This document shows positions 1 to 18,145 of a stretch of 64,000 nucleotides of DNA, piece by piece. Below the pieces are notes generated by a model. It ran no database searches. It was not told the origin of the DNA and was given only the letters and a program-made list of their open reading frames with translations. Each line of letters begins with the position of its first letter. Within the stretch, counting starts at the first letter, position 1. The DNA is taken from NCBI RefSeq assembly GCF_026625885.1, contig NZ_CP113068.1, positions 3,286,001 through 3,350,000 of the forward strand, in the 5' to 3' direction. The translations under genes were made by a program, and so were the position numbers. Source of the stretch: Roseateles sp. SL47. Lineage in GTDB: Bacteria; Pseudomonadota; Gammaproteobacteria; Burkholderiales; Burkholderiaceae_C.

Positions 1-1
1 A

Positions 2-1636
2 GCCGCAGCACTTGTCAGTGTCGGCAGCTCGGCAGCAGGCATCAGCGTCGACGATCCCGACTGGTCCTTGCGTTGGGACAACACCATCAAGCTTAGTGCC
101 ATGGCGCGTGTGGCCAAGGCCGATGGTGCGCTGGCCGACTCAACGCGACTGCTGGTGCCCGGCGTGTCGTCTTCGGCATTTCCGCAGGCACTGAACTTCA
201 ACGCGGGCGATGACAACTTCCGCCGTCGTGGCCTGGTCTCCGAGCGCGTTGATCTGTTGAGTGAGTTCGATGCGGTCTATCAACGGCGCTTTGGCGTGAG
301 GCTCAGTGGCGCCGGGTGGTATGACGCCGCCTACCACCGGAACAGCGATGCGGTCGATCCACTCAACGGCCAGACCCCGGAGAACCGCTTTCCCAAGCAC
401 ACCCGCGAGATGGCCGGTGGCAAGGCAGAACTGCTGGATGCGTTTGTTTTTGGCGCCTGGGAACTGGAGGGCGGCCGCCGCCTGAGCGCACGTCTGGGGC
501 AGCATGCGTTGCAGTACGGCGAGAGCCTGTTTTATGGAGACAACGGCATTGCCCGTGCCCAAGGCCCGATCGACGTTGCCAAGTTGCTGGCGTCGCCGAA
601 CGCCCAGTTCAAGGAAATCATCCGCCCCGTGCCGCAAGTGTCGGCGCAGTTGCAGCTCTCGGCCGATGTGTCGGTGGGGGCGTACTACCAGTTCCAGTGG
701 GAGTCGGACCGCCTTCCGGCGGCTGGGAGCTACTTCTCCACCGTCAACGTCCCGTGGGGATCGTCACAGCCCGAGTACATCAATGTGAGCTCGGGGGCTC
801 TGGCAGGGCAGTACGTGCTCAAGGCCGATCGGTTGGTGGAGCCCAGCAACAGCGGCCAATACGGGATGCAGGTGAAGTGGCGCGCGGCCGACACCGACCT
901 CGGTGTCTATCTCGCCCGCTATCACGACAAGTCCGGGCAACTCTATGGCGACCTGAATGTGGCGGCGCCGCAGGACAGCCGCTGGTTCTATGTCTTCCCG
1001 GCGGCGGTGAAGACCGTTGGAGCCAGCGCGTCGCATTCGTTCGGTGATGTGAACCTGGCTGGCGAGGCTTCCCTGCGCTGGGACATGCCTCTGCGCAGTC
1101 AGAACATTCTTTATCCCTCGGCCTTGAGCCCTCAGCCTGCATACGCCACAGGCAAGACCGCCCACATCAATTTGTCGTGGCTGGCCACTCTGGGGCCGAA
1201 CTGGCTGGCCAATGAATCCAGTTTTGTGGGCGAGCTGGCCTGGCACCGGGTGCTCAGCCGCCACGACCCCGATCATGAACTCGACCCGGCCCGCAGCCGC
1301 GATGCCACCGCGCTTCAGTTTGTGTTCAGTCCCAGCTACCGGCAGGTCCTGCCAGGTGTGGATCTCAGTGTGCCGGTGGGACTTCGCTACACCCTCGACG
1401 GCCACTCTCCGGTCATTCCCTGGGAGTCGCGCGGCAGCGGCTCCGCCTCGCTGGGGCTCGAAGGCAACTACCTCGGCGTCTGGCAATTCACCCTCAATTA
1501 CACGCGCTACATCGGCTCCGCCGTGCCCTTCTTGGATTACCGCGCGCTGCTGAGTGGCGGCTCCACCTTCTACAGCCGGGGCAATCCATTGGCAGACCGT
1601 GACTATGTGGCGGTCTCGCTTCGCCGCACCTTCTAA
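2..1636 (+). CDS. DUF1302 family outer-membrane protein (5' partial)
   Basis: The reading frame is open from base 2 to the TAA at 1634-1636, so the gene begins outside the window; the TTG at 68 lies inside the coding sequence and is unlikely to be the start. The visible part is about 544 residues. Its start, DWSLRWDNTIKLS, followed by many alternating hydrophobic/polar strands and a terminal aromatic (RRTF), fits a DUF1302 beta-barrel. Members are predicted outer-membrane proteins, and they commonly sit next to DUF1329 genes, as here. The signal peptide would lie upstream. It leads a 13-gene same-strand run and probably handles outer-membrane passage of a hydrophobic compound, which is inference from context. 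Confidence 0.85.
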   Translation, partial: AAALVSVGSSAAGISVDDPDWSLRWDNTIKLSAMARVAKADGALADSTRLLVPGVSSSAFPQALNFNAGDDNFRRRGLVSERVDLLSEFDAVYQRRFGVRLSGAGWYDAAYHRNSDAVDPLNGQTPENRFPKHTREMAGGKAELLDAFVFGAWELEGGRRLSARLGQHALQYGESLFYGDNGIARAQGPIDVAKLLASPNAQFKEIIRPVPQVSAQLQLSADVSVGAYYQFQWESDRLPAAGSYFSTVNVPWGSSQPEYINVSSGALAGQYVLKADRLVEPSNSGQYGMQVKWRAADTDLGVYLARYHDKSGQLYGDLNVAAPQDSRWFYVFPAAVKTVGASASHSFGDVNLAGEASLRWDMPLRSQNILYPSALSPQPAYATGKTAHINLSWLATLGPNWLANESSFVGELAWHRVLSRHDPDHELDPARSRDATALQFVFSPSYRQVLPGVDLSVPVGLRYTLDGHSPVIPWESRGSGSASLGLEGNYLGVWQFTLNYTRYIGSAVPFLDYRALLSGGSTFYSRGNPLADRDYVAVSLRRTF

Positions 1637-1656
1637 AAATGAAATCGGAGACAAGC

Positions 1657-3033
1657 ATGCAAAGCATTCAGCCACGGGCGCTGGCACCTTGGAGTTTTGG
1701 CCTCATCGCTTTGATGGCCAGTTGTGCAGTGCCGGTATGGGCGGGCGTCTCTGCGGAGGAGGCCACCCGCCTGAAGGGCGAATTGACCCCGTTGGGCGGC
1801 GAGCGCGCTGCCAACAAGGACGGCACCATTCCCGCCTGGACCGGCGGCATGACCACCCCCATCACCGGAGACAAACCGGGAGGGCGACGCGGTGATCCGT
1901 TCAAGGATGAGAAGCCGCTGTTCAGCATCACTGCGCAGAATGTCGGGCCCTATGCGGACAAGCTCACCGACGGCACCAAAGCAATGCTGAAGCGGTTCCC
2001 GGAGAGTTTCCGGGTGGACGTCTACAAGACGCACCGCACCGCCGCCGCTCCGCAATGGGTCTACGACAACACCTTCAAGAACGCCACCCGTGCCCAGCTC
2101 AAGGGTGACCTGGTGGAGGGCGCTTATGGCGGCATTCCATTCCCCATCCCGAAGTCCGGCGCGGAGGTGATGTGGAACCACCTGTTGCGCTGGCGGGGCA
2201 CGACGCTGCAACTGGACATCACCCAGTACCAGCTCACCTCGGACGGCAAGGCCGTGCTCACCACCGACGGCAGCATGGATCAGCAGATGCCCTATTACTT
2301 CCAAGAAGGCACGGCTGAGCAATTTGCGAAGACCCAGGAACCCTGGATGGTGCGGCTGCGTAACTCCGGCCCGCCGATTCGTGCCGGTGAGGCCATGGTC
2401 GGGCGCAACAACATTGACGGGGCCAAGGATCAGGCCTGGGTGTACCTCACCGGGCAGCGCCGCGTGCGCAAGCTGCCGAACCCCTGCTGCGATACGCCCA
2501 CCCCGGCCACTGCAGGCGTGATGAGCTTCGACGAACTCGAGACCTGGACCGGGCGGCTGGATCGGTTCGACTGGAAGCTCGTTGGCAAGCAGGAGATCTT
2601 CATCCCCTACAACGGCAATCGCCTGCTGCAACCGAAGGAGGATGCGGCGGTGGTGACCCGGTCCCATCTGAATCCGGACCATGTGCGCTGGGAACTGCAC
2701 CGGGTGTGGGTGGTGGAAGCGACCTTGCGCAAGGGGCAGCGTCATCAGGCCGCGCGGAGCCGCTACTACTGCGATGAGGACACCTGGAACTGTGTGCTGG
2801 GCGACCGTTGGGACGCCCAGGGGCAGCTGTGGAAGACCCTCTGGGCCCAGACCCTGGTGGCGCCGGACTTGCCTGGCACCGTCATTGGCGCATTCGGCTT
2901 TACCGATCTGCTGTCCGGAACCGGCTTTGTGGGCAATCTCTACAACAGCAAAGCCCAGCAATACGCCGTCAAACCAAGGTTGGCCGACAGCGTTTTCACG
3001 CCGGACGCCATGGCAGGTGAGGGCATCCGGTGA
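1657..3033 (+). CDS. DUF1329 family periplasmic protein
   Basis: This is a 458-residue exported protein. I chose the ATG at 1657 over the one at 1639 because GGAGA lies just before it (1647-1651), and because translation from there opens with a clean signal peptide cleaved near VWA-G at residue 29. The body matches the DUF1329 pattern, including EEATRLKGELTPLGGE and NKDGTIPAWTGG near the N-terminus. Family members are thought to be lipoprotein-carrier-like periplasmic proteins and almost always neighbour DUF1302 genes. It lies 20 bases after the DUF1302 gene and overlaps or abuts the next one. A periplasmic shuttle between the RND exporter and the outer membrane is inferred. Confidence 0.85.
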   Translation: MQSIQPRALAPWSFGLIALMASCAVPVWAGVSAEEATRLKGELTPLGGERAANKDGTIPAWTGGMTTPITGDKPGGRRGDPFKDEKPLFSITAQNVGPYADKLTDGTKAMLKRFPESFRVDVYKTHRTAAAPQWVYDNTFKNATRAQLKGDLVEGAYGGIPFPIPKSGAEVMWNHLLRWRGTTLQLDITQYQLTSDGKAVLTTDGSMDQQMPYYFQEGTAEQFAKTQEPWMVRLRNSGPPIRAGEAMVGRNNIDGAKDQAWVYLTGQRRVRKLPNPCCDTPTPATAGVMSFDELETWTGRLDRFDWKLVGKQEIFIPYNGNRLLQPKEDAAVVTRSHLNPDHVRWELHRVWVVEATLRKGQRHQAARSRYYCDEDTWNCVLGDRWDAQGQLWKTLWAQTLVAPDLPGTVIGAFGFTDLLSGTGFVGNLYNSKAQQYAVKPRLADSVFTPDAMAGEGIR

Positions 3034-3044
3034 GGGCGCGCGGC

Positions 3045-4148
3045 ATGAACATGGTGGGGCGGTTGCCGAAGGCATGGCGACCCTCGTTCTGGATGACCTG
3101 CGGCTGCTTGGGCCTTGCCGTCAGTCAGCTGGCCCTGGCGTCCGCGCCGGTGTCCCCCACCTCGACCAGGGCCGAAGATGCCTTGCAACGCCCTGCGGTG
3201 TCGGTGAAGCACCCCGGTCAGGCGGTGCTGCTGGGGGCGGCCGTGCAGGGCGCGCGGTGGGTGGCCGTCGGCGAACGAGGCCTGATTGTGGTGAGCGAGG
3301 ACGGAGGCCGCCAATGGACCCAGGTGGACTCGCCCGTCAGTGTCACGCTGACGGCGGTCCGATTTGCGAATCCACAGTTCGGCGTGGCAGTGGGGCATGG
3401 CGGTGTGGTTTTGGTGACCAACAACGGCGGCCGCGAGTGGAAAGCCCGTCTGGATGGGCGGGCACTCGGAAATCTTCTGCAGGCGCAGGCTCAATCACGC
3501 GGCGATGCCGACGCCATGGCGATGGCGCAACGTCTGGCCTCCGAAGGCCCGGACAAGCCATGGCTGGACGTGAGTGTGGCGGGCGCCGGCCAGATCACCG
3601 TGGTGGGCGCTTATGGATTGGCGCTGCACAGCGACAACGGCGGGCGGAGCTGGCGTTCATTTGCGGGCCCTCTGGACAACCCCAGAGGCATGCATCTCTA
3701 TGCCATCCGCCAGGTGGGCCAGCGCATCCTGATCGCTGGCGAGCAGGGCTTGGTGCTGCTGTCGGAAGACGGTGGACGGAGCTTCAGCCGACTGCAGACG
3801 CATTACAAAGGCAGCTTCTTCGCTGCCGAATTGCTGCCCGATGGCGGCCTGCTGGTCGCGGGCCTGCGCGGCCAGGTGCTTCGCAGTGGCGATGGCGGCC
3901 AGAGTTGGGTGGCGCTCGCCTCACCCGCCACCGGCGCCATCACCGGCATCGCTTTGCAGGCGAATGGCGTTCCGGTGCTGGCCAGCCAGTCGGGGCAGCT
4001 GTTGGGACTGCAGGGGAGCGCGCTGGTGCCGTGGGGGCCGCAAGACCTGCCGCCACTCAACGGCGTGGTGGCGGTGGATGCCAAGCGGGTATTGGCGCTG
4101 TCCGTCCGAGGCCCCATCCCCATTGAGCTTCCCGGAGGCGCGCCATGA
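3045..4148 (+). CDS. YCF48-like Asp-box propeller protein, exported
   Basis: The protein has 367 residues from the ATG at 3045; a GTG at 3030 overlapping the previous stop is an alternative start. An N-terminal signal segment ends near residue 32 (LALAS-A). Five Asp-box/BNR repeats are directly visible: SEDGGRQW (about residue 84), TNNGGREW (125), SDNGGRSW (196), SEDGGRSF (240) and SGDGGQSW (282), as in the beta-propeller of photosystem II assembly factor Ycf48. In non-photosynthetic bacteria such proteins occur in DUF1302/DUF1329/RND clusters. The stop overlaps the RND start by 4 bases, so the two are probably translationally coupled. A scaffold or assembly role for the exporter is inference. 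Confidence 0.8.
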   Translation: MNMVGRLPKAWRPSFWMTCGCLGLAVSQLALASAPVSPTSTRAEDALQRPAVSVKHPGQAVLLGAAVQGARWVAVGERGLIVVSEDGGRQWTQVDSPVSVTLTAVRFANPQFGVAVGHGGVVLVTNNGGREWKARLDGRALGNLLQAQAQSRGDADAMAMAQRLASEGPDKPWLDVSVAGAGQITVVGAYGLALHSDNGGRSWRSFAGPLDNPRGMHLYAIRQVGQRILIAGEQGLVLLSEDGGRSFSRLQTHYKGSFFAAELLPDGGLLVAGLRGQVLRSGDGGQSWVALASPATGAITGIALQANGVPVLASQSGQLLGLQGSALVPWGPQDLPPLNGVVAVDAKRVLALSVRGPIPIELPGGAP

Positions 4149-6577
4149 CGCCGGCACGCTTTGATGCCACTGCGGGCATTCCGCTGGCGGCGCAGTCGGG
4201 CTCATTGCTCGAGCGTGCCGTGTTCAATCATCGCTGGCTGGTGCTGGTGGTGTGCGCGTTGGCGACGCTGCTGCTGGGCTGGCAGGCGTCCCGGCTCAGC
4301 CTGAACGCCAGCTTCGAGAAGACCATTCCGCTGCGCCACCCCTACATCCAGAACTTTGTGGCGCATCAGTCGGAGCTGACCGGACTGGGCAATGCCGTTC
4401 GGATCGCTGTTGAGAACCCCAAGGGCACCATTTATGACGCCCACTACATGGAGACTCTGCGTCAGCTCAACGACCAGATCTTCCTGCTCAAGGGCGTGAA
4501 CCGGACGCAGCTCAAGTCGCTATGGACGCCCAACACCCGCTGGGGCGCGGTGACCGAAGAGGGCCTGGATGGCGGCCCGGTGATTCCGGATGGTTTTGAC
4601 GGGTCTCCTGCCGCCCTTCAGCAGTTGAGCGTGAACGTGTCCCGGTCGGGCGAACTGGGGCAACTGGTGGCCAACGACCTGCGCTCCAGCATCATCTCGG
4701 TGCCGTTGCTCGCGAAGGATGCGCAGGGGAGGTCGCTGGACTATGCCGAGTTCGCCGCCCAACTGGAATCGCTGCGGGCGACCTACGAAGCGAAGGGGCT
4801 GGTGCTGCACATCACCGGTTTTGCCAAGGTCATTGGGGACCTGCTGGACGGCGTACGGGCGGTGCTGATGTTTTTTGCTGCGGCGGTGCTGATCGCCACG
4901 CTGGCGGTGTGGGGCTACACGCGGTGTCTGCGTTCCACGGCGCTGGTGGTGGCCGCATCGCTGATCGCAGTGGTGTGGCAGTTGGGGGCGCTGCCGATGT
5001 TGGGCATGGCGCTGGACCCTTATTCGATTCTGGTGCCGTTTCTGGTCTTTGCCATTGGCATGAGCCATGGGGCCCAGAAGATGAACGGCATCATGCAGGA
5101 CATCGGCCGCGGAGCCTCCCGTCTGATGGCGGCGCGCCTGACCTTTCGGCGGTTGTTCATGGCCGGTCTGACGGCCCTGCTGGCCGATGCCGTCGGATTC
5201 GCGGTGCTGCTGGTGATCGACATCCAGGCGATTCGCGAGCTGGCCATGGCGGCCTCCTTGGGCGTGGCGGTGCTGATCGTCACCAACCTGATCCTGCTGC
5301 CGGTGATGCTGTCCTATGTGGGCGTGAGCGCAGCGGCGGCTCAACGCAGTCTGCGCGACGAGGCGCCAGCGACCGCCACAACGAGCGTCCCCGCGCCCAG
5401 CAGTCCAGGAGGATGGGGGTGGCTCGAACGCTTCACCCATCGCCGTTGGGCCCGTGCGGCGGTCCTCGGTGGGCTGCTGATGGGGGTGGGCGGCGCTTGG
5501 ATCGCGACACGCCTGCAGATTGGCGATCTTGATCCCGGCGCCCCGGAACTGCGCGCCAACAGCCGCTACAACCGCGATGTGGCCTTCATGAACCAGGGCT
5601 ACGGAGCCAGCAGCGATGTGCTGGCGGTGATGGTGAAGACGCCTGAAGGGCAGTGCGCGCAGTGGTCCGTGCTGAGCAAGGTCGATGCGTTGGAATGGGA
5701 ACTTCGGCAACTGCCCGGTGTGGAGTCCACGCAGTCACTGGCGCTCTTGAACCGGCGGGTGCTGACCGGACTGAACGAGGGCAACCCGAAGTGGTATGAG
5801 CTGCTGCCCAACCAGGACATGCTCAATGCCGTCACCGCCGGTGCGCCCCGAGGCCTCTACAACGACAGCTGCAGTCTGTTGACGCTCTATATCTATCTGG
5901 CCGACCACAAGGCCGCAACGCTGACGCGGGTGGTGGAGCACGTGGAAGCCTATGCCCGCCTGCACGACGGCCCCGATGCCAGCTTCCTGCTGGCTGCAGG
6001 GCCGGCAGGCATCGAGGCGGCGACCAACATGGCGGTGAAGGACGCCTGGCGTCTGATGCTGGTGCTGGTGTATGGCGCCGTCATGCTGCTGTGCTTTCTC
6101 ACCTTCAGGTCATGGCGGGCCGTCCTGGTCGCCGTGCTTCCGTTGGTGTTGACCTCCATGCTGGCGGAAGCCTTGATGGTGGCGCTGGGCATGGGCATCA
6201 AGGTGGCCACCCTGCCGGTGATCGCACTCGGGGTGGGCATCGGGGTGGACTACGCGCTCTACATCCTCTCTGTCACCTTGGCCGGGCTGCGTGCCGGTCA
6301 GTCGCTGACACAGGCCTATGCCGATGCACTGCGATTCACCGGCCGTGTGGTGATGCTCACAGGCGTCACGCTGGCCGTTGGCGTGGCGACGTGGATCTTC
6401 AGCCCCATCAAGTTCCAGGCCGACATGGGCCTGCTGCTGGCGTTCATGTTCCTCTGGAACATGGCGGGAGCGCTGGTGTTGGTGCCTGCCCTCGCGCATT
6501 TCCTTCTCCCCGGCGCTACCCGCGCCTTGCCCAATCCGTCGGCAGGACCGGCGGGACCAACCGTCGCACCGGTTTAA
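4145..6577 (+). CDS. RND/MMPL family exporter
   Basis: This 810-residue inner-membrane protein has two similar halves. Each half has one N-terminal transmembrane helix, a large periplasmic loop and a block of helices; TM1 is near residues 30-48 and the helix blocks lie around 235-400 and 640-800. The second half contains the GVGIGVDYALYIL type segment typical of the RND/MMPL superfamily. It is shorter than the roughly 1,000-residue drug pumps and resembles hydrophobe, sterol or lipid exporters. It starts in an ATGA overlap with the Asp-box gene. The DUF1302-DUF1329-YCF48-RND order suggests a dedicated trans-envelope route; direction and cargo cannot be read from sequence. Confidence 0.85.
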   Translation: MTPARFDATAGIPLAAQSGSLLERAVFNHRWLVLVVCALATLLLGWQASRLSLNASFEKTIPLRHPYIQNFVAHQSELTGLGNAVRIAVENPKGTIYDAHYMETLRQLNDQIFLLKGVNRTQLKSLWTPNTRWGAVTEEGLDGGPVIPDGFDGSPAALQQLSVNVSRSGELGQLVANDLRSSIISVPLLAKDAQGRSLDYAEFAAQLESLRATYEAKGLVLHITGFAKVIGDLLDGVRAVLMFFAAAVLIATLAVWGYTRCLRSTALVVAASLIAVVWQLGALPMLGMALDPYSILVPFLVFAIGMSHGAQKMNGIMQDIGRGASRLMAARLTFRRLFMAGLTALLADAVGFAVLLVIDIQAIRELAMAASLGVAVLIVTNLILLPVMLSYVGVSAAAAQRSLRDEAPATATTSVPAPSSPGGWGWLERFTHRRWARAAVLGGLLMGVGGAWIATRLQIGDLDPGAPELRANSRYNRDVAFMNQGYGASSDVLAVMVKTPEGQCAQWSVLSKVDALEWELRQLPGVESTQSLALLNRRVLTGLNEGNPKWYELLPNQDMLNAVTAGAPRGLYNDSCSLLTLYIYLADHKAATLTRVVEHVEAYARLHDGPDASFLLAAGPAGIEAATNMAVKDAWRLMLVLVYGAVMLLCFLTFRSWRAVLVAVLPLVLTSMLAEALMVALGMGIKVATLPVIALGVGIGVDYALYILSVTLAGLRAGQSLTQAYADALRFTGRVVMLTGVTLAVGVATWIFSPIKFQADMGLLLAFMFLWNMAGALVLVPALAHFLLPGATRALPNPSAGPAGPTVAPV

Positions 6578-6593
6578 CTCTGGAAGTCTCACG

Positions 6594-7754
6594 ATGTTCA
6601 AGTATTTCCCCACCAACTACGTTTGGAACCTGTCCGTCGACCTGGCGCTCGAAATGGGCGCCCGGATCGGTGAGATCGAAACCATGTGCGCCCCGCTGCA
6701 AGAGGCCGCCAAAGCGCCCGATGCCGCCGGCACACGGGCCTTCCGGGACACCTGGGCCGCCATGGCGGACAAGCTCTGTGCGCTGGCGGAAGAGGATGAA
6801 GCCCAAGGGCGCTTGTTGTCCGCCGGAGAGAAATACAACCGCGCCGCCACCTATTACCTGACCTGTGAGCGGCTGCAGGCCCATGGCGCACCAGGCCGTG
6901 TCGAGCTGTACAGGCGGTTTCTGGCGGTGTTTGATCGGGGTGTCCGGCTGAGCGGCGAGAACTGCCGTCGTGTCGAGATTCCCTACGAAGGTCAGGTTCT
7001 GTCGGCGCTCTATGTCCCGGCCGAAGGCGTGCAAGGGCGGGCTCCGGTGCTGGTGCAGGTCAACGGCCTCGATTCCACCAAGGAGATGAAGTACAGGGTC
7101 GGGCTGCCCCAGTGGCTGGCGCGCCGGGGTGTGGCCTCGCTGGTCGTGGATCAGCCCGGCACGGGCGAGGCGCTGCGCCTGCATGGACTGACCGCACGTT
7201 TCGATAGCGAGCATTGGGCGTCCCGCGTGGTGGACTGGCTGGAACGGCAGGAGGGGGTGGACCCCGCCCGCATCGGCCTGGAAGGCGTGTCCTTGGGCGG
7301 CTATTACTGCCCGCGTGCGGTCGCCTTTGAACCTCGCTTCGCCTGCGGCGTGGTCTGGGGCGCCAATCACGACTGGCGCGACGTGCAGCGCAAGCGGCTG
7401 CAGAAGGAGGGAAGCTTCCCCGTGCCGCATTACTGGGCGCATGTGCAGTGGGTCTGGGGCGCCAAGGATCTGGACGACTTCATGCGCATCTCCGAAGACG
7501 TGCATCTGGACGGCATCCTCGACCGCATCCGGGTGCCCTTCCTGGTCACGCATGGCGAGAGGGATTCGCAGATCCCGCTCCAGTGGGCCCACCGGACCTA
7601 CGACCAGCTCATCAACAGCCCCAAGCGCGAGCTCAAGGTGTTCACCGACCGTGAAGGCGGTGTGCAGCACTCGAGCTTCGACAACAGCATCAACGCCGGC
7701 CAGTACATCGCCGATTGGGTCGCCGAAACCCTGGGCGGCCGCACGGCCTGCTAA
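6594..7754 (+). CDS. alpha/beta hydrolase with helical N-terminal domain (C-C hydrolase-like)
   Basis: The protein has 386 residues from the ATG at 6594. Residues 1-115 form a helical N-terminal region and residues 125-386 an alpha/beta hydrolase fold. The nucleophile motif GVSLG places Ser233; Asp324 (GERDSQ) and His359 (GGVQHSSFD) complete a plausible triad. The oxyanion strand is at VNGLDSTKE. This layout resembles 2,6-dihydroxypseudooxynicotine hydrolase, which breaks a C-C bond in a ring-derived ketone, and related FrsA-like esterases. Next to an extradiol dioxygenase it may hydrolyse a ring-cleavage product. A simple esterase cannot be excluded. It lies 16 bases after the RND gene. Confidence 0.8.
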   Translation: MFKYFPTNYVWNLSVDLALEMGARIGEIETMCAPLQEAAKAPDAAGTRAFRDTWAAMADKLCALAEEDEAQGRLLSAGEKYNRAATYYLTCERLQAHGAPGRVELYRRFLAVFDRGVRLSGENCRRVEIPYEGQVLSALYVPAEGVQGRAPVLVQVNGLDSTKEMKYRVGLPQWLARRGVASLVVDQPGTGEALRLHGLTARFDSEHWASRVVDWLERQEGVDPARIGLEGVSLGGYYCPRAVAFEPRFACGVVWGANHDWRDVQRKRLQKEGSFPVPHYWAHVQWVWGAKDLDDFMRISEDVHLDGILDRIRVPFLVTHGERDSQIPLQWAHRTYDQLINSPKRELKVFTDREGGVQHSSFDNSINAGQYIADWVAETLGGRTAC

Positions 7755-7784
7755 GGCGACGCTCACATCCCACAAGGAGCACAC

Positions 7785-8801
7785 ATGAACATCATTGGAC
7801 CCGATGCGCTGGTTTTCGGCGTGGACGACCTGGCCGCCTGCAGCCAGTACCTCATCGATTACGGCCTGACCCCCGTCGAACAGAGTGCCGCCGGTGGGCG
7901 CTTTGAAGCACTGGACGGCACCGCCATCGTGCTCGCCCTGGAGAACGACCCGTCACTGCCACCGTCTCTGGGCACGGCCAGCCGCCTGCGCAAGACGATC
8001 TACGGGGTGCGCGATGAAGCCAGCCTGAGCGCCATCGCCGAGGAACTGGGCCGTGACCGTGAGGTCCGCCGACTGCCCGATGGTTCCCTGGAGGCCCTGG
8101 ATGACATGGGCTTTGTGCTCGGATTCCAACTGGCCCGCCGGCGTCCCATCACGGTGGCGGCGGAGCTCATCAACGCGCCGGGTACAGCGGTGGCCCGTGC
8201 GCCCAATGCGGTGGCCGTGGATGAGTCCGCCGAGGTGCGGCCGCTGACGCTGTCGCACGTGGTGTATTTCGTGCCGGATGAAGCCCGGGCGACGGCTTTT
8301 TACACCCAGCGCCTGGGCTTCCGTGTCACCGACCGCCTGGAGGGCGCCGGCCCCTTCCTGCAGCCTGCAGGGACGCTGGACCACCACACGCTGTTTCTGA
8401 TCCAGACGCCCCCCTTCATGAAGGGTGTTGAGCACTTCACCTTCCACATGAGCGGCCCGACCGCCGTGATGCAGGCGGGTACGCGCTTCGTGAACAAGGG
8501 GTATCAGAGCTTCTGGGGGCCCGGCCGCCACAAGTTCGGCTCCAACTGGTTCTGGTACTTCAACAGTCCCCTGGGCTGCCATGTGGAATATGACGCCGAC
8601 ATGGACCATCACGACGCGCAATGGACGGCGCGCAGCGTCCCGATGAGTGCCGATGCCTCTCAGTTGTTCCTGTTCCAGCATCGTGACAAATGGGCGCCGG
8701 GTGAGCCGCCCAAGGGCATTCCTCCGGGGGGCTCGGCCGCTGCCGGCGCCACGTCCACCACAACGGCTGCCCCATCAGCCCTGCACGACGATGCTCACTG
8801 A
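7785..8801 (+). CDS. VOC-superfamily extradiol-type dioxygenase
   Basis: This 338-residue protein has two VOC modules. The C-terminal one carries the type I extradiol dioxygenase signature: metal ligands His158 (LSHVVYF), His217 (GVEHFTF) and Glu268 (GCHVEYD), a catalytic-type His201 (LDHHTLF) and a GRH/His249 element, in the order seen in 2,3-dihydroxybiphenyl dioxygenases. Such enzymes use Fe(II) or Mn(II) and O2 to open catechol rings next to the hydroxyls. The N-terminal module lacks these ligands and is probably structural. A strong ribosome site (AAGGAG) precedes the ATG, and the last 11 bases overlap the Rieske gene. Ring cleavage is likely; the substrate is unknown. Confidence 0.8.
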   Translation: MNIIGPDALVFGVDDLAACSQYLIDYGLTPVEQSAAGGRFEALDGTAIVLALENDPSLPPSLGTASRLRKTIYGVRDEASLSAIAEELGRDREVRRLPDGSLEALDDMGFVLGFQLARRRPITVAAELINAPGTAVARAPNAVAVDESAEVRPLTLSHVVYFVPDEARATAFYTQRLGFRVTDRLEGAGPFLQPAGTLDHHTLFLIQTPPFMKGVEHFTFHMSGPTAVMQAGTRFVNKGYQSFWGPGRHKFGSNWFWYFNSPLGCHVEYDADMDHHDAQWTARSVPMSADASQLFLFQHRDKWAPGEPPKGIPPGGSAAAGATSTTTAAPSALHDDAH

Positions 8802-9249
8802 TGCCACCAGGCTTTGCCACGCGTCGGAGGTGGCGGAGGACGAGGCGCTGTGCGTACCCGCCCCCGCTGCCGCGCCAACGCCCGGCGAGCCTTGGTTCCT
8901 TGTGCGCCATGGGGGGCGACTGTACGGCTACCGTGACGATTGCCCGCATATCCCTGGGTCACCGCTGGCATGGCGCCGCCATGCATACCTCAGCGGCGAC
9001 CATCAGCGCATCGTCTGCCACGCGCATGGCGCGCAATTCGAAATTGCAACCGGCCACTGTGTGATCGGTCCCTGTGTTGGGCTTTCCCTGACTGCCATCC
9101 CACTTGCACTGGCGCCTGACGGCAGTGTGCATTTCGATTCAAACGCCCCACACCCGCAACACCCTCCACACCCTCCACACGCTTCCAGCGCTTCGAACGG
9201 TCCGTATTCCCGCATCACCCTCACCAAAGATTCCAGGAGACAGCCATGA
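8791..9249 (+). CDS. Rieske [2Fe-2S] ferredoxin
   Basis: The 152-residue protein starts at the ATG at 8791, inside the end of the dioxygenase gene. The Rieske cluster ligands are Cys51 and His53 (DDCPHIPG) and Cys76 and His79 (CHAHGAQF), so the C-x-H and C-x2-H pairs are both present. The spacer between them is 22 residues, slightly longer than the usual 15-18. After residue 115 comes a His/Pro/Ser-rich tail (APHPQHPPHPPH) not typical of ferredoxins. No Rieske oxygenase alpha subunit or ferredoxin reductase is in the window, so its electron partner must lie elsewhere. The stop overlaps the monooxygenase start as ATGA. Confidence 0.8.
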   Translation: MLTDATRLCHASEVAEDEALCVPAPAAAPTPGEPWFLVRHGGRLYGYRDDCPHIPGSPLAWRRHAYLSGDHQRIVCHAHGAQFEIATGHCVIGPCVGLSLTAIPLALAPDGSVHFDSNAPHPQHPPHPPHASSASNGPYSRITLTKDSRRQP

Positions 9250-10376
9250 CATCAACAGCCCAACGTGTCCTCATTATTGGCGGAGGCTTCTCCGGCATGT
9301 CCGCCGCTATTGCGCTCAGACGTCAGGGCGTTCAGGTCGATCTGGTGGAGATCGACCCAGGCTGGCGCTCCTATGGGGCCGGCATCAGCCTGGGAGGGGC
9401 CACGCTTCGTGCGTTCAGCCAATTGGGAATCCTGCAGGATTTCCTGCGCGAGGGGTGGGCCAGTGATAACGTGGCCATCTATACGCCCGAGGGGGTGAAG
9501 GTCGGTGAGATTCCCACCCCCCGAATCGCCGGGCCGGCCGTGCCGGGCGGCGGCGCCATCATGCGGCCGGTCCTGGCCCGCATCCTCGCCCGGGCCACGC
9601 GGGCCGCCGGTACGGATGTCCGGCTGGGCGTCACCTTTGAAACGATTGAAGACCTCGGTGACGAGGTGTCGGTTCGTTTCACCGATGGCCAGACGCGCCG
9701 GTATGACCTTGTCATCGGGGCGGACGGGCTCTACTCCAAAGTCCGTCAGACCCTGTTCCCGGAGGTGCAGGCGCCGAAGTACAGCGGGCAGGCGGTCTGG
9801 CGGGCCGTGTTGCCTCGTCCGCCGGAGATCACCACGGCGGTGATGTGGGTCGGCGGCGACGTGAAGCCGGGGGTCAATCCAGTCTCCAACGAAGAGATGT
9901 ACCTGTTCGTCACGGAGCATCGGCCGGTCAATGATCGCGTGGATCCGGCCACCTTCGTCGACCATCTGAGCGGGCTGCTGAAAGGGTTCCGGGTGCCCTT
10001 GATCCAGCGCATGTGTGAGCAGATCAGCGAGGGCGCGCAGATTGTGTTCCGGCCATTGGAAGGTTTGCTGGTCCCTCGGCCGTGGCACCGGGGGCGGGTG
10101 GTGCTGATTGGTGACACGGTCCATGCCACCACCCCACACATGGCGTCCGGTGCCTGCATCGGCATCGAGGATGCGCTGGTCCTGGCCGAGGAACTGGGCC
10201 GCCACGCCGAAACCGAAGCGGGCTTGTTGGCGTTCCAGGCGCGCCGCTGGGAGCGCTGCCGGATGGTGGTGGAGAACTCCGCGCGCCTGGGTGAGATCGA
10301 AATGACCCATGGCAGCAAGGAAGAGCACGGGTCCATCATGCGTGAGACGCACATGGCGCTGGCCCAGCCCATCTGA
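9246..10376 (+). CDS. FAD-dependent class A monooxygenase
   Basis: This is a 376-residue aromatic-hydroxylase-type flavoprotein. It has the N-terminal GGGFSG dinucleotide fold at residues 12-17, the DG-type motif VIGADGLYS near 157-165 and the GD motif RVVLIGDTVHATTPH near 285-300. These three mark group A monooxygenases, which use NAD(P)H and O2 to hydroxylate phenolic or enolic substrates. AGGAGA precedes the start, and its stop is 10 bases before the permease ATG. In this operon it could prepare the ortho-dihydroxy ring for the extradiol enzyme, which is inference. It needs no ferredoxin, so the Rieske protein probably serves another partner. Confidence 0.85.
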   Translation: MTSTAQRVLIIGGGFSGMSAAIALRRQGVQVDLVEIDPGWRSYGAGISLGGATLRAFSQLGILQDFLREGWASDNVAIYTPEGVKVGEIPTPRIAGPAVPGGGAIMRPVLARILARATRAAGTDVRLGVTFETIEDLGDEVSVRFTDGQTRRYDLVIGADGLYSKVRQTLFPEVQAPKYSGQAVWRAVLPRPPEITTAVMWVGGDVKPGVNPVSNEEMYLFVTEHRPVNDRVDPATFVDHLSGLLKGFRVPLIQRMCEQISEGAQIVFRPLEGLLVPRPWHRGRVVLIGDTVHATTPHMASGACIGIEDALVLAEELGRHAETEAGLLAFQARRWERCRMVVENSARLGEIEMTHGSKEEHGSIMRETHMALAQPI

Positions 10377-10386
10377 AGGAATGGCC

Positions 10387-11544
10387 ATGAACCACACAAT
10401 TGGCAAGGGCGGCATCTTCGCCTTGATGGTGGCGCATTGCGCCGGCATGGTGGACTTGGTGGCGCTGCCGGTCTGGATCGGTGCGCTGGTGCAGGACTTC
10501 GGCCGTGACCCCCAGCAGGCCGGCGGCATCGTCACGCTCTTTCTGCTGGGAGCGGTGGTAGCCAGCATCGGCATCGCCCGGCAACTTGCCGAGGTGAATG
10601 GCCGATTCTGTGCCGCGCTCGGTTATGGCTTGGCGGCCATCGCTTTTCTCGCCATGCCGGCCACGCAAAACATTTCATGGATCGCTGCCTTGCACTTCGG
10701 GGCCGGGTTGAGCGCTGGCGCCGCTCTGAGCGTCACGCACGGCACGATCGGCCGCGCGGGCAATCCTCATCGGCTGTTTGCACTCGCTGGAATGGCCTTG
10801 GGGGTGTTTGCCATCGGCTTTCTCGGTTTTGCCGCTCCCCTCGTGAGCGAAGCGGGTGGGGCGGCCCTGTTCCGCCTCTTTGCGGGGGTGATGGCGACGG
10901 CATCGTGCTTGTCACTGGTCGCCTTTCCGGCGCTGCACAAGCCGTCCTCCGGCACCACCCTGGGCGCCCCGGCTATTCCGGCGGCGGCCTGGTACGGTGT
11001 GGCCGGCATCAGCCTGATGGCCCTGGTGCAGGCCATGGTCTTCAGCTTCCTGGAGCGGGCCGGCCATGCGCGGGGATTCAGCGTGGCGCAGATCACCAGT
11101 GTGCTGATTGCGGTGGGGGTGGTGAACCTCTTCCCTGCGGCCGCTGCCGCGCTGCTCGAGCGGCGCCTGCATCCGTCTTCGGTGCTGCTCGCTGGGCCGA
11201 TTGTGCAAGCCGGCGTTGCGGCGACGCTCATGGGGACGGCCGGCTTTGGTGCCTATGCGGCCGCGGCCGCAGTGTTTTCGGCGGTGATGATCTTCACGCA
11301 CACCTTCGCCTTTGGCGTGATTGGTCGCAGGGATCGTGGTGGAAGGGCGGTCGCAGCCACCCCCGCCATGCTGATGACCGGTGCCGCCATCGGCCCGGTT
11401 CTGGGCGGCACGCTGGTGAAGCACGTGGGCTTTTGGAGCCTCGGCATTGCTGCGGCGGTGCTGGCTTGTGTGTCCTTTGCCTGCTTCCTGCTTGCGCAAC
11501 GACCTGATCCGATGCCCGCATCCAACCTGGAGCCCACCGTATGA
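10387..11544 (+). CDS. MFS transporter
   Basis: This 385-residue, very hydrophobic protein has about twelve predicted transmembrane helices in two halves separated near residue 190, which fits a major facilitator superfamily permease. I chose the ATG at 10387 because AAGGA sits about six bases upstream; the in-frame ATG at 10381 is too close to it. Its place inside the catabolic run, coupled to the next gene by an ATGA overlap, suggests uptake of the pathway substrate or release of an intermediate. Sequence alone does not tell which compound or direction. Confidence 0.8.
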   Translation: MNHTIGKGGIFALMVAHCAGMVDLVALPVWIGALVQDFGRDPQQAGGIVTLFLLGAVVASIGIARQLAEVNGRFCAALGYGLAAIAFLAMPATQNISWIAALHFGAGLSAGAALSVTHGTIGRAGNPHRLFALAGMALGVFAIGFLGFAAPLVSEAGGAALFRLFAGVMATASCLSLVAFPALHKPSSGTTLGAPAIPAAAWYGVAGISLMALVQAMVFSFLERAGHARGFSVAQITSVLIAVGVVNLFPAAAAALLERRLHPSSVLLAGPIVQAGVAATLMGTAGFGAYAAAAAVFSAVMIFTHTFAFGVIGRRDRGGRAVAATPAMLMTGAAIGPVLGGTLVKHVGFWSLGIAAAVLACVSFACFLLAQRPDPMPASNLEPTV

Positions 11545-12344
11545 GACCCCGCAAGACGAATCGCCGCATGGTGGACCTGTCCATCTTCCTGGAAAACGAC
11601 GTGCTGTCGGACCCACCGCCGTTGGCCCCGAAGATCACCTATCAAACGCACAAGGAAACGGTGGGCGAATTCATGTCGCTGCTGCCGGGGACCCAGGCCG
11701 AGGACTATCCGGACGGTGAGGCCGCCGCTGCCGAATGGGTCACCCTCACCACGCACAGCGGCACCCACCTGGATGCCCCATGGCACTTCCATTCAACACA
11801 AGACGCCAAGAATGGCGGCGCCAGGCCCTCCATGACCATTGACCAGGTGCCGTTGGAATGGTGCATGCAGCCCGGGGTGAAGCTGGATTTCCGGCATCTG
11901 CCGGATGGCCACGTGGTGTCCGCCGCCGAGGTGGAGGCGGAACTCAAGCGTATTGACTGGGAACTTCAGCCCCTGGACATCGTGGTGGTGAATACCCGTG
12001 CCGGCCAGCGTTATGGTCAGCCGGACTATGTCCGCACCGGTTGTGGCATGGGCTACGAAGCCACCATGTATCTGCTGGAGCGGGGTGTTCGCTTGACCGG
12101 CACCGACGCCTGGAGTTGGGACGCGCCCTTTGTCTACACCTCCGAAAAAATCAGGCAGACGGGTGACACGTCGCTGATCTGGGAAGGTCACAAGGCAGGC
12201 CGTGACATCGGGTATTGCCACCTCGAAAAGCTGCACAACCTGGAGGCGCTGCCGCCCCACGGTTTTACGGTCGCCTGTTTCCCGCACAAGATCCGCGCGG
12301 CTTCGGCTGGATGGACGCGCGCCGTTGCCATCTTTGAGGAGTAA
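11541..12344 (+). CDS. cyclase family (kynurenine formamidase-like) metal hydrolase
   Basis: This is a 267-residue member of the cyclase family (Pfam PF04199). The diagnostic metal motif HSGTHLDAPWH is present at residues 72-82. Known members include bacterial kynurenine formamidase and isatin hydrolase; they hydrolyse amides or lactams with a divalent metal, and several occur in aromatic degradation clusters. The start overlaps the MFS stop by 4 bases, and the cupin gene follows with no gap. The reaction here may be hydrolysis of a cyclic or amide intermediate, but that is not fixed by the sequence. Confidence 0.8.
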   Translation: MRPRKTNRRMVDLSIFLENDVLSDPPPLAPKITYQTHKETVGEFMSLLPGTQAEDYPDGEAAAAEWVTLTTHSGTHLDAPWHFHSTQDAKNGGARPSMTIDQVPLEWCMQPGVKLDFRHLPDGHVVSAAEVEAELKRIDWELQPLDIVVVNTRAGQRYGQPDYVRTGCGMGYEATMYLLERGVRLTGTDAWSWDAPFVYTSEKIRQTGDTSLIWEGHKAGRDIGYCHLEKLHNLEALPPHGFTVACFPHKIRAASAGWTRAVAIFEE

Positions 12345-12914
12345 ATGATGAGCTTGCCCCCCATTCATCGCGTGGTCACCGGCCATGATGACGCTGGACG
12401 TTCCAGGGTGTCCTCCCACGGGCCGCTACCCACGGTCCGCGAACTGGCGGCCATTCCAGGCACGGTGTTCCATGAGGTGTGGAGCACCGCAGCCAGCCCG
12501 GCACCGATCCACAACGGGCCGGACCCGACGCTTGGTCCGCTGGTGCTGCCGCCCCCCAAAAACGGCACCCGCATTCGATTTGTGGATATTCCTCCGGACA
12601 CCGAGGATTTCCTGTCCAACGGCGCGGGCCGCATGAAGGACGCCTTTGGTGAGATCGGTGATACCCACGCTTCCACGGTCAATGCGGAGTCCCCGCATCC
12701 GTTGATGCACCGCACCGAGTCGGTGGATTACGGCGTGGTGATCGAAGGAGAAATGACACTGGTACTGGATGTGGGGGAAGTCTCGCTGAAGCCGGGCAGT
12801 GTGGTGGTGCAACGGGGCACCAACCATGCCTGGGCGAATCGTTCGGACCGGCCGTGTCGAATGCTGTTTGTGCTGGTGGACGGTGTGTTCTCCGCTGGCC
12901 TCAAGGAGAGCTGA
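12345..12914 (+). CDS. cupin domain protein
   Basis: This 189-residue protein has one C-terminal cupin barrel. The first cupin motif appears around HPLMHRTESVDYGVVIEGE and the second around QRGTNHAWANRSDRPCR, giving histidine and glutamate residues that could hold a metal, though the first motif is degenerate. The ATG follows directly after the cyclase stop; an ATG at 12348 is equally possible. Proteins of this type recur in aromatic-catabolic operons, where they may be small dioxygenases, isomerases or binding proteins. No specific activity can be assigned. Confidence 0.75.
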   Translation: MMSLPPIHRVVTGHDDAGRSRVSSHGPLPTVRELAAIPGTVFHEVWSTAASPAPIHNGPDPTLGPLVLPPPKNGTRIRFVDIPPDTEDFLSNGAGRMKDAFGEIGDTHASTVNAESPHPLMHRTESVDYGVVIEGEMTLVLDVGEVSLKPGSVVVQRGTNHAWANRSDRPCRMLFVLVDGVFSAGLKES

Positions 12915-13901
12915 ATGCGCTTTGCCACATTGAAGAATGGGTTCAAGGATGGCCGCCTGGTGCTGGTGTCCCGGGATCTCACCACCTGTGTCAGTGCGGG
13001 CCCGATGGCACCGAGCCTGATCCATTTGATGGAACGATGGGACGAGCTGCTGCCGCAGCTTCGGCAACTGGATCAAAGGCTCCAGGCGGGCACCGCCGAG
13101 GGCATCCAGCCGCTGGTGCCGGAGCAGTGCGCCGCGCCGTTGCCGCGCAGCCCCCAGTGGTGCGACGCCTCGGCATTCCTCAATCACGGGCGATTGATGG
13201 AGCGGGCATTCAATACGCCGCCCATTCCTGATTTCGACACGATTCCGGTGATGTACCAAGGTGCCAGTGACGACTTCCTCGGGCCCTGCGACGATGTGCT
13301 TCTGCCCTCCGTTCAAGACGGCATTGATTTCGAGGGGGAATTTGGCGTGATCGTTGGCGAGGTGCCCATGGGGGCGTTGCCGCAGGCCTGCCTGGCGGCG
13401 GTGCGCCTCATTGTCCAGATCAACGACTGGAGTTTGCGGGCGCTGGGGCCGCGAGAGATGCGCAGCGGCTTTGGATTCCTCCAGGCCAAGCCCTCCACGA
13501 GCTTCGCTCCGGTGGCAGTGACACCCGACGAATTGGGGACGGCGTGGTGTGACGGTCGGGTTCACCTCGGTTTGCGGGTCACCTGGAACGGTGTCCATTT
13601 TGGACAAGCGCACGGGAGCGAGATGAACTTCGGGTTCGGCCAATTGATTGCCCATGCCGCTCGCACCCGGCGATTGACGGCAGGCACCATCATCGGCTCC
13701 GGCACGGTCTCCAACGAATCAAGTCAACGCGGCTCTGCCTGCATCGCCGAGCGCAGGGTGATTGAGATTCTCGAGACCGGTGCGGCCTCCACCGGCTTCA
13801 TGCAGTTCGGGGACCACGTCAGCATGCAGGCGGTCTTTGATGACGGCACGGACGCGCCCTTTGGCCGGGTGAACCAATACGTTCGGCAGGCGCGGCCATG
13901 A
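12915..13901 (+). CDS. fumarylacetoacetate hydrolase (FAH) family enzyme
   Basis: The 328-residue protein has the C-terminal FAH fold. Acidic metal ligands fit Asp138/Glu140/Glu142 (DGIDFEGEFGVIVG) and Asp171 (INDWS), and the conserved TIIGSGTVSN loop is at residues 258-267. FAH-family enzymes hydrolyse or hydrate diketo acids late in aromatic degradation. A good ribosome site (AAGGAGA) precedes the ATG, which follows immediately after the cupin stop. Downstream of ring opening it plausibly splits a C-C bond or hydrates a dienoate; fumarylacetoacetase itself is less likely because no homogentisate genes are present. Confidence 0.8.
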   Translation: MRFATLKNGFKDGRLVLVSRDLTTCVSAGPMAPSLIHLMERWDELLPQLRQLDQRLQAGTAEGIQPLVPEQCAAPLPRSPQWCDASAFLNHGRLMERAFNTPPIPDFDTIPVMYQGASDDFLGPCDDVLLPSVQDGIDFEGEFGVIVGEVPMGALPQACLAAVRLIVQINDWSLRALGPREMRSGFGFLQAKPSTSFAPVAVTPDELGTAWCDGRVHLGLRVTWNGVHFGQAHGSEMNFGFGQLIAHAARTRRLTAGTIIGSGTVSNESSQRGSACIAERRVIEILETGAASTGFMQFGDHVSMQAVFDDGTDAPFGRVNQYVRQARP

Positions 13902-14857
13902 CCCGGGTGGCCATCACCGGAGCGAGCGGCTTCATCGGACAGACGCTGTGCCGGCAGTTGCTGGCGAATGGGCTGGACGGGCAACCGGTGGGCTCATTGG
14001 CCTTGTTTGACCTCGATGTGTCGGTGTGGGCGGAGGAGGGCGGGCGAGACTCCCGCCTTCATCTCTTCGGCGGCAGCCTTGCAGATCCGCAGGTGCTGGA
14101 GGACCTCGTCCGCTGGGGCCCGGACGTTGTGTTCCATCTGGCCAGCGTACCGGGCGGCGCGGCCGAGCGGAATCGGGCACTGGGGCGTTCCGTCAACCTG
14201 ATGGCCACGCTCCAACTGATCGAGGCGCTCGGGCGGGATGTGGATCCAGTGCGTCTGGTCATGGCCAGTTCGATTGCGGTGTATGGCGACCACTTGCCGG
14301 CCCTCATTGAAGAGGCGAGTACGGTCCCGGCGCCGAAGTTGAGCTACGGCGCGCACAAACTGGCCTGTGAGACGGTGCTGGCTGATGAGACGCGGCGTGG
14401 GCGGATCGCCGGATGCGCGCTGCGTCTTCCCGGTGTGGTGGCCCGGCCCGGCCCGTCGTCGGGCTTGATGTCTGCTTTTATGAGCGACATCTTTTGGGCC
14501 CTGCGGGATGGACAGCCGATTCAGCTACCCGTGTCTGAAGCGGCCACGGCGTGGTGGATTTCCGGCCGGGCTTGCGCCAGGAATCTCCTGCATGCCGCCA
14601 CCTTGCCTCCGCAGTGCCTGCTGGCACGCAGCGTTTATCAAATGCCTGCGCTGCACCTGTCGATGGGCGAGTTGGTGGCCGCATTGGGCCAGCGATTTGA
14701 TCGAGATCCGATGCAATGGGTTCGCTACCGTCCCGACCCCCTGGTGCAGCAATTGTTTGGCAGCTATCCGCCGCTGCAGACGCCGCATGCAGACGCGGCG
14801 GGTTTTTGCAGCGATGGATCTCTGTTGGCACTGATCGACGCGGTCCTGCAAGGCTGA
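13898..14857 (+). CDS. NAD-dependent epimerase/dehydratase (extended SDR)
   Basis: This 319-residue extended short-chain dehydrogenase has the NAD-binding GASGFIG at residues 8-14 and the catalytic Tyr150-x3-Lys154 (SYGAHK), with a serine-rich strand (MASSIAVYG) before it. The overall look is close to D-erythronate dehydrogenase-like epimerases. It overlaps the FAH stop by 4 bases and ends the 13-gene run. A role in oxidising a hydroxy-acid or polyol left after ring cleavage is possible but unproven. A hairpin near 14780-14810 lies within the coding sequence and is not the operon end. Confidence 0.75.
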   Translation: MTRVAITGASGFIGQTLCRQLLANGLDGQPVGSLALFDLDVSVWAEEGGRDSRLHLFGGSLADPQVLEDLVRWGPDVVFHLASVPGGAAERNRALGRSVNLMATLQLIEALGRDVDPVRLVMASSIAVYGDHLPALIEEASTVPAPKLSYGAHKLACETVLADETRRGRIAGCALRLPGVVARPGPSSGLMSAFMSDIFWALRDGQPIQLPVSEAATAWWISGRACARNLLHAATLPPQCLLARSVYQMPALHLSMGELVAALGQRFDRDPMQWVRYRPDPLVQQLFGSYPPLQTPHADAAGFCSDGSLLALIDAVLQG

Positions 14858-15011
14858 ATGGTGGCATCGAAGCGCCTGCGGCCTGTGATCCCGCAACGAC
14901 ATGCACATGACATCGCGTCTTTGACCCCAAGGCTGCGTTGCACATCCTCGCGATGCCTCCAGTCATCACTGCGGTGTGCGCCTTGCCCAGGGCCCGGACG
15001 CCCTGCGTGTC

Positions 15012-15042
15012 TGTCGGCGGTGGCATCCTGTCACCGCCGACA
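15012..15042. terminator. hairpin in convergent gap, probable terminator
   Basis: Two perfectly complementary 11-base arms (15012-15022 and 15032-15042) enclose a 9-base loop. The hairpin lies in the 205-base gap between the + strand catabolic operon and the minus-strand heme-protein gene. No T-run follows on either strand, so it may need a factor or act as an mRNA 3' stabiliser. Confidence 0.45.
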
Positions 15043-15062
15043 CTCGGAACAGCCGTCGCTGC

Positions 15063-16535: not shown

Positions 16536-16872
16536 GGTGCTGCCCTTCCTGTGATGGATGAGGTTGAAGATGGACTTCAATGCGGGGAGGGCCCGATCCC
16601 GTGAGCACCTGCGTGCAATGCGTGTCTTCTGGTCAAGCGCCAGCGGGACCCGATGCATGTGCGACACAGATCCTCCCTTGGCGGGTGGCGGCTGCTCTCA
16701 TGGCAGGATTCACCAACCCGGACAACACGGTACGCGGGCACCGTGCTGACGTCATCCGCAATGAAAATGATCTGGGGACGGGATTGCGGGTCCTGTGGCC
16801 GGCTCAAGGTTTCCAGCTCTGTCCAGGGACTTTGCGTTAGGCTCCAGGCGAGCATTCCCCAGGAGCGCCCGC
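16536..16872. other. divergent intergenic region
   Basis: This 337-base gap separates the heme-protein start (minus) from the VOC gene start (plus) and must hold both promoters. I see ribosome sites on each side but no convincing -35/-10 pair, operator or RNA structure. Confidence 0.4.
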
Positions 16873-18019: not shown

Positions 18020-18145
18020 CAATTTCTCATTCTTGTCTAGGATGGCAGCCGCTGGAGAATGCCGCAGCCGGACGCGTGTCGCAGAACGCTCGCCGGCTGC
18101 CCCGATCGGTGCCCTCCCGCCCATCAACACCTCTTGGAGACATCA

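Follow-up and report, generated by a model that had tools for sequence, protein, structure and literature searches.

A block of thirteen genes occupies positions 1 to 14857 of a 64,000-nucleotide stretch of the Roseateles sp. SL47 genome (contig NZ_CP113068.1, positions 3,286,001 to 3,350,000; this whole stretch is called the window below). Comparison with related loci makes it very probable that the block is an fde-type operon, likely serving the degradation of plant flavonoids of the naringenin kind through hydroxylation of the A ring at C8 followed by its meta-cleavage, in which a quartet of envelope genes stands in the place of FdeA. The preliminary description of this DNA had left the substrate as unknown and had matched the gene set to no named pathway; the gene-order search that it proposed as its own refuting check gave the Herbaspirillum fde operon, reported for naringenin (PMC10755750, PMC8552027, PMC10799723), and neither statement can be maintained. 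A likely substrate class is now named for a seemingly orphan operon, which becomes a testable flavonoid route. The fde pathway is already known; what may be new is its exchangeable transport slot. Transporters are swapped in front of a constant enzyme set, which, if true, would amount to a natural experiment on the function of the DUF1302/DUF1329/RND quartet.

The fde operon of Herbaspirillum seropedicae, in which FdeC and FdeE are Hsero_1005 and Hsero_1007 (PMC10755750), provides the frame for this identification. For Herbaspirillum, activation by FdeR, hydroxylation at C8 by FdeE and a ring cleavage in which FdeC takes part are reported (PMC10755750, PMC8552027, PMC10799723). FdeE complexes with the Rieske protein FdeD, and FdeA is compared with a "phenol degradation protein" (PMC8552027), while FdeR is a LysR activator, with a gap common to fdeR and fdeA (PMC10799723). 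The substrates of FdeE include flavanones, flavones, isoflavones and flavonols (PMC11303751). Pseudomonas thivervalensis SC5 is also reported to carry a cluster highly identical to the genes for naringenin (PMC8515041). To collect relatives of the window operon, titled genome contigs were scanned using an alignment headed by the H. seropedicae protein P0229; the best 80 of 194 were kept as the set for all locus counts, a set weighted in favour of sequences close to the Herbaspirillum protein. The seven Herbaspirillum loci all carry a divergent LysR gene followed by consecutive, same-strand genes for FdeA, an alpha/beta hydrolase, a VOC protein, a Rieske ferredoxin and an FAD (flavin adenine dinucleotide) monooxygenase (FMO). 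The MFS, cyclase, cupin, FAH and epimerase genes then follow in the order of the window in the six loci with enough contig (L009 ends at the FMO gene). Identity of the window proteins to those of Herbaspirillum is 47-54% for LysR, 80-81% for the hydrolase, 69-71% for VOC, 41-43% for Rieske and 69-71% for FMO; in the six longer loci it is 54-56% for MFS, 81-83% for the cyclase, 73-76% for the cupin, 64-66% for FAH and 44-46% for the epimerase. Both H. seropedicae entries listed, P0232 and P0229 (the latter over 376 residues), share 71% identity with the FMO of the window; P0229 is inferred to be FdeE from the Herbaspirillum gene order rather than from its own record. As seen through these seven congener loci, the window thus shares with the fde operon of H. 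seropedicae SmR1 a divergent LysR gene and nine enzyme or permease genes in the same order, with 41-83% identity over the nine, and this shared order matches the window set to a described pathway. The first position differs: it codes for FdeA in Herbaspirillum, a PF13557 (Phenol_MetA_deg) protein in the three of three tested, and is occupied in the window by the DUF1302-DUF1329-YCF48-RND quartet, which makes the window operon a variant and not the Herbaspirillum form. PF13557 is a family of the outer membrane, and FdeA is a predicted outer-membrane protein.

All 80 loci were found through FMO alone and 68 have the hydrolase, VOC, Rieske and FMO genes consecutive among the matches to 14 query genes, an uninterrupted arrangement that speaks for clustering beyond chance. 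Counted in the same way, 26 loci show the full nine-gene order and 13 have all thirteen genes in order; these three figures are lower bounds because short contigs and stray matches break the gene string. When only loci whose flanks are long at either end are counted (59), the numbers are 52 for the core, 25 for nine genes and 13 for thirteen. This conservation bears on the idea that the operon belongs to a separate, undescribed meta-cleavage pathway that is fde-like only through shared enzyme families. The families are indeed widespread (the FMO search gave 5668 matches at E 0.001 among 8000 candidates scored), but 64-83% identity in six of the nine genes, in the same order, is far above family-level likeness and leaves that idea very improbable.

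The nine enzyme and permease genes all lie on the + strand; their letters B and F to J are assigned by position only. The first codes for an alpha/beta hydrolase (FdeB, 6594..7754), a predicted C-C hydrolase whose triad residues are found in 74 of 75 aligned rows for S233 (the other row has a gap) and in all 75 for D324 and H359. The Ser-Asp-His roles of these residues are presumed from alignment to structure 2jbw. The latter, 2,6-dihydroxypseudooxynicotine hydrolase, is the best solved relative of the protein, with the difference that its substrate belongs to the nicotine route and that the similarity is remote (76 bits); it is a C-C bond hydrolase (PMC11069340). The VOC extradiol dioxygenase (FdeC, 7785..8801) has a 2-His-1-carboxylate metal site, H158, H217 and E268, in all 72 rows kept in its alignment after six were dropped for frame breaks. 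This site was read by aligning the protein to the metal-binding residues of BphC, whose structure 1han is among its PDB matches. Assignment of the VOC protein as HpaD, BphC or catechol 2,3-dioxygenase was rejected, the scores being 39.9, 37.0 and 35.1 bits against curated cut-offs of 321.4, 366.5 and 320.2. The Rieske ferredoxin (FdeD, 8791..9249; PF00355, 8.8e-9) carries the motif CPH...CHAH, and the FMO (FdeE, 9246..10376; GGGFSG, GADGLYSK and GDTVHATTP) is a predicted flavonoid 8-hydroxylase. The trio corresponding to FdeC-FdeD-FdeE is contiguous at 7785-10376. It is followed by an MFS permease (FdeF, 10387..11544; PF07690), a cyclase-family metal hydrolase (FdeG, 11541..12344; PF04199, 1.5e-35; HSGTHLDAPWH), a cupin (FdeH, 12345..12914; PF07883) that is a candidate pyranone-opening enzyme, and an FAH-family hydrolase (FdeI, 12915..13901; PF01557 and PF18288). 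The last gene codes for an NAD (nicotinamide adenine dinucleotide) epimerase/dehydrogenase (FdeJ, 13898..14857; PF01370), which scores 212 bits with the D-erythronate dehydrogenase model, under the cut-off of 325.

A chemical parallel is found in the ifc isoflavone cluster of Variovorax sp. V35, which comprises FMO 8-hydroxylation, an FdeC-like dioxygenase, cupins and an alpha/beta hydrolase (PMC11069340). Its intermediates are 8-hydroxydaidzein, an ion fitting the dioxygenated product of that compound, and then a 4-pyrone (m/z 203.03) that is the substrate of the cupins; no gene for the middle step was identified in that study (PMC11069340). Compared by description, the two systems have in common an 8-hydroxylating FMO (predicted in the window), an FdeC-like dioxygenase, a cupin and an alpha/beta hydrolase. 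They differ in that ifc has two redundant cupins and an induced region spanning locus 59270 to 59590, and in that the ifc FMO, the isoflavone-specific IfcA, is reported as 36% identical to FdeE (PMC11069340), against 71% between the FMO of the window and that of H. seropedicae. In the pathway proposed here, the FdeR-like LysR protein would sense a flavonoid and turn the operon on. The DUF1302 barrel together with the LolA-like, YCF48 and RND proteins would carry the flavonoid, which is poorly soluble, or products derived from it through the envelope, with MFS presumably acting at the inner membrane. FdeE with the ferredoxin FdeD would hydroxylate C8 to give a 7,8-diol, and FdeC would then open the A ring, probably by cutting the C8-C8a bond. 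The C4a-C5 bond would be split by the alpha/beta hydrolase or by the FAH enzyme; for a 5-hydroxyflavanone, formula arithmetic built on the ifc pattern suggests oxaloacetate and a C11H10O4 dihydropyranone as products. The cupin, the cyclase-family hydrolase, the FAH enzyme and the dehydrogenase may open and shorten the remainder to a 4-hydroxyphenyl acid, which could be finished by PobA and a protocatechuate 4,5-dioxygenase encoded elsewhere. Matches over the cut-off to PobA, LigA and LigB are present elsewhere in the genome.

A number of observations weigh against the assignment to fde and the proposed route. The H. seropedicae operon itself is outside the 80-locus set and its congeners stand in for it. 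The Rieske protein (41-43%) and the epimerase (44-46%) are the least conserved relative to Herbaspirillum. Among the 25 NCBIfam models listed for each, the only one whose cut-off FMO passes describes a subfamily named "hypothetical protein", and LysR passes none. The excerpt of the H. seropedicae naringenin RNA sequencing (RNA-seq) report holds no mention of "fde" and gives induction of the acrAB pump instead (PMC4440368). Disruption of the ifc alpha/beta hydrolase left daidzein degradation intact (PMC11069340), so the role of this enzyme in the C4a-C5 step is weak. The beta subunit of protocatechuate 3,4-dioxygenase was not found in the genome search and the end of the route must therefore differ from the pca route. 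FMO homologues may also differ in flavonoid class, IfcA taking isoflavones only (PMC11069340). A rival reading is that the fde chemistry is kept and that the real substrate is another hydroxylated benzopyran or related phenol (an isoflavone, flavonol, catechin, chromone or coumarin) and not a flavanone. FdeE is broad, accepting flavanones, flavones, isoflavones and flavonols (PMC11303751), compared with the isoflavone-specific ifc FMO (PMC11069340), so that substrate class shifts inside the same chemistry, and identity between the FMO of the window and that of H. seropedicae is 71%, not 95%. Against it, the nine-gene order and the divergent FdeR-like regulator are kept with Herbaspirillum, and the identity of only 36% between IfcA and FdeE (PMC11069340) would place the window FMO on the FdeE side. 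Such a substrate is considered improbable, and a naringenin-kind flavonoid is presumed for the window organism.

The position ahead of the enzymes is where the loci diverge. It holds the quartet in 44 of the 80 loci, FdeA in 13, a TonB receptor in four, a TRAP transporter in four and none of these in 15, with two systems together in no locus; in this set, picked by FMO similarity, the FdeA form is thus outnumbered by the quartet form. The quartet is complete in 43 of the 44, L040 having three of the four genes. Where 9.9 kb or more of upstream sequence is available (70 loci), the complete quartet is present in 43, FdeA in 13 and neither in 14 (L040 being counted in these 14). The quartet lies directly before the enzyme core in 41 of the 44 loci (the exceptions are L062, L065 and L079), with an extra monooxygenase between quartet and core in two of the 41 and the hydrolase gene missing in two. 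Extra FAD monooxygenases with 27-29% identity to that of the window are encoded between RND and hydrolase in L040 and L043 and ahead of the quartet in L022 and L073. The four TonB receptors and the four TRAP transporters are encoded directly upstream of the hydrolase, among the 23 loci that lack quartet and FdeA; both are generally uptake systems. Eight of the 15 loci that have no listed transporter in place have less than 5.2 kb upstream of FMO; of these 15, three encode a TonB receptor at another place in the locus and L051 has an amidohydrolase open reading frame (ORF) before the hydrolase. Two genomes have two fde-like clusters each: Massilia sp. PDC64 (L055 with a TonB receptor, L063 with the quartet) and Telluria antibiotica TW-1 (L060 with a TonB receptor, L056 with the quartet).

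On a quick tree without bootstrap, built from hydrolase, VOC and FMO (78 rows, six VOC rows being dropped for frame breaks), the four transporter labels change at least eight times over 66 labelled rows (the minimum possible is three), a count in which independent losses are indistinguishable from gains. Acidovorax kalamii and A. facilis (L016, L019), which have the quartet, stand beside A. delafieldii (L020) and an Acidovorax metagenome-assembled genome (L024), which have FdeA, with support 94. The FdeA group made up of Herbaspirillum and L014 has as its sister L011 and L021, both with the quartet, at support 100. L037 is the nearest relative of the window in both the enzyme tree and the quartet tree; in the window, the two parts therefore appear to have travelled together. 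A leader sequence GGAGACA follows the divergent LysR gene in 13 of 13 FdeA loci, 13 of 14 quartet loci and two of eight others (28 of 35 in total) and also in the window, compared with 2.8% in base shuffles; it was chosen after viewing the alignment and resembles a ribosome-binding site. Tentatively, the first position of fde operons could be regarded as a swappable gate, taken by four unrelated envelope systems through at least eight replacements, and the AmeABCD-type quartet as an import ferry and not an exporter. Such a gate, which we hold to be possible but rather doubtful, would have kept the same kind of regulator and leader for the FdeA-type and quartet forms. The import role, equally uncertain, would have the porin-like DUF1302 protein, the LolA-like shuttle and the RND motor bring flavonoids in.

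The quartet, also on the + strand, codes for a DUF1302 predicted outer-membrane barrel (AmeA-like, 1..1636, starting 110 bases before the window), a predicted periplasmic DUF1329 LolA-like protein (AmeB-like, 1639..3033; PF07044, 4e-124), a predicted periplasmic YCF48/BNR protein (AmeC-like, 3030..4148; PF14870, 1.7e-18) and an MMPL/RND inner-membrane transporter (AmeD-like, 4145..6577; PF03176, 1.3e-17). The host genome has one DUF1302 protein. Compared by description, the same four domain types occur in the same order in AmeABCD of Castellaniella defragrans 65Phen (DUF1302, DUF1329/LolA, YCF48-type and RND), which is associated with monoterpene tolerance (PMC6394551). The setting differs, the Castellaniella quartet being among monoterpene genes and the window quartet at the front of a putative flavonoid operon. 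Cells with AmeABCD deleted tolerated monoterpenes less well and, when de-energised, accumulated more Nile Red; the proposal of export made for Castellaniella rests on these tolerance and dye-accumulation data (PMC6394551). The label of exporter given to the window module in the preliminary description is affected by the alternative occupants of the slot (FdeA, TonB receptor or TRAP transporter) in 21 of the 80 relatives: export and import may both fit the quartet. There is a somewhat less than even chance that the quartet is a detoxifying exporter alone, with no role in substrate entry, which would be compatible with an fde-type operon. The AmeABCD deletion phenotype and the description of HAE3 pumps as moving substrates into the periplasm (PMC6394551) agree with this, as does the presence of the exporter AlgE among the tied best fold matches of the predicted DUF1302 model. 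That model fits the uptake porins OpdK/OccK and BenF-like equally well, however, and the slot that never holds quartet and FdeA together is filled in eight loci by the uptake-type TonB or TRAP systems.

The physical layout agrees with the preliminary description, which had seen thirteen same-strand, tightly spaced genes. The ORF check gave 13 + strand ORFs at 1..14857 in one tightly packed block with intergenic gaps of -11 to +30 bases, including five 4-base overlaps and two zero gaps, and Pfam supports the domain class of each gene. Of its interpretation, homology supports a meta-cleavage pathway acting on a single class of cyclic compounds, with envelope genes sharing the block. The window edge truncates the first gene, whose ATG is 110 bases upstream at L002:13891. 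The divergent LysR gene (PF00126/PF03466) is just upstream, outside the window, at L002:12821-13897 (complement). A consensus scan of 1-15300 gave no sigma-70-like promoter (shuffle mean 2.0) and 14 terminator-like matches (shuffle mean 8.8, standard deviation 3.1), by which a single transcript is neither proven nor excluded.

FMO was found at E 1e-100 in one of 16 genus genomes, its own, and in 11 of 150 sampled family genomes, its own included and one at only 48% identity. This distribution and a nearby IS21-type istA/istB pair (L002:7793-10119, about 4 kb upstream of the operon) would fit a gain of the operon by transfer. The host genome, a single contig of 6.39 Mb, has one close VOC protein, the second match being 27% identical. 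Elsewhere in the genome, at G000:C1:1812614-1814109 (L085, L088), a second FAD monooxygenase is encoded next to a VOC protein, and the two are perhaps another meta-cleavage pair. On the upstream side, a gene for a methyl-accepting chemotaxis protein (L002:10990-12627) adjoins the LysR gene on the same strand and could sense the same compounds, and a KilA-N gene and a helicase gene are located farther out than the IS21 pair. Downstream of the operon, a 534-residue ORF at window positions 15063-16667 (complement) has no Pfam match at 0.001, and the gene at 18059-19912 codes for a family 16 glycosyl hydrolase that carries a CBM56 module.

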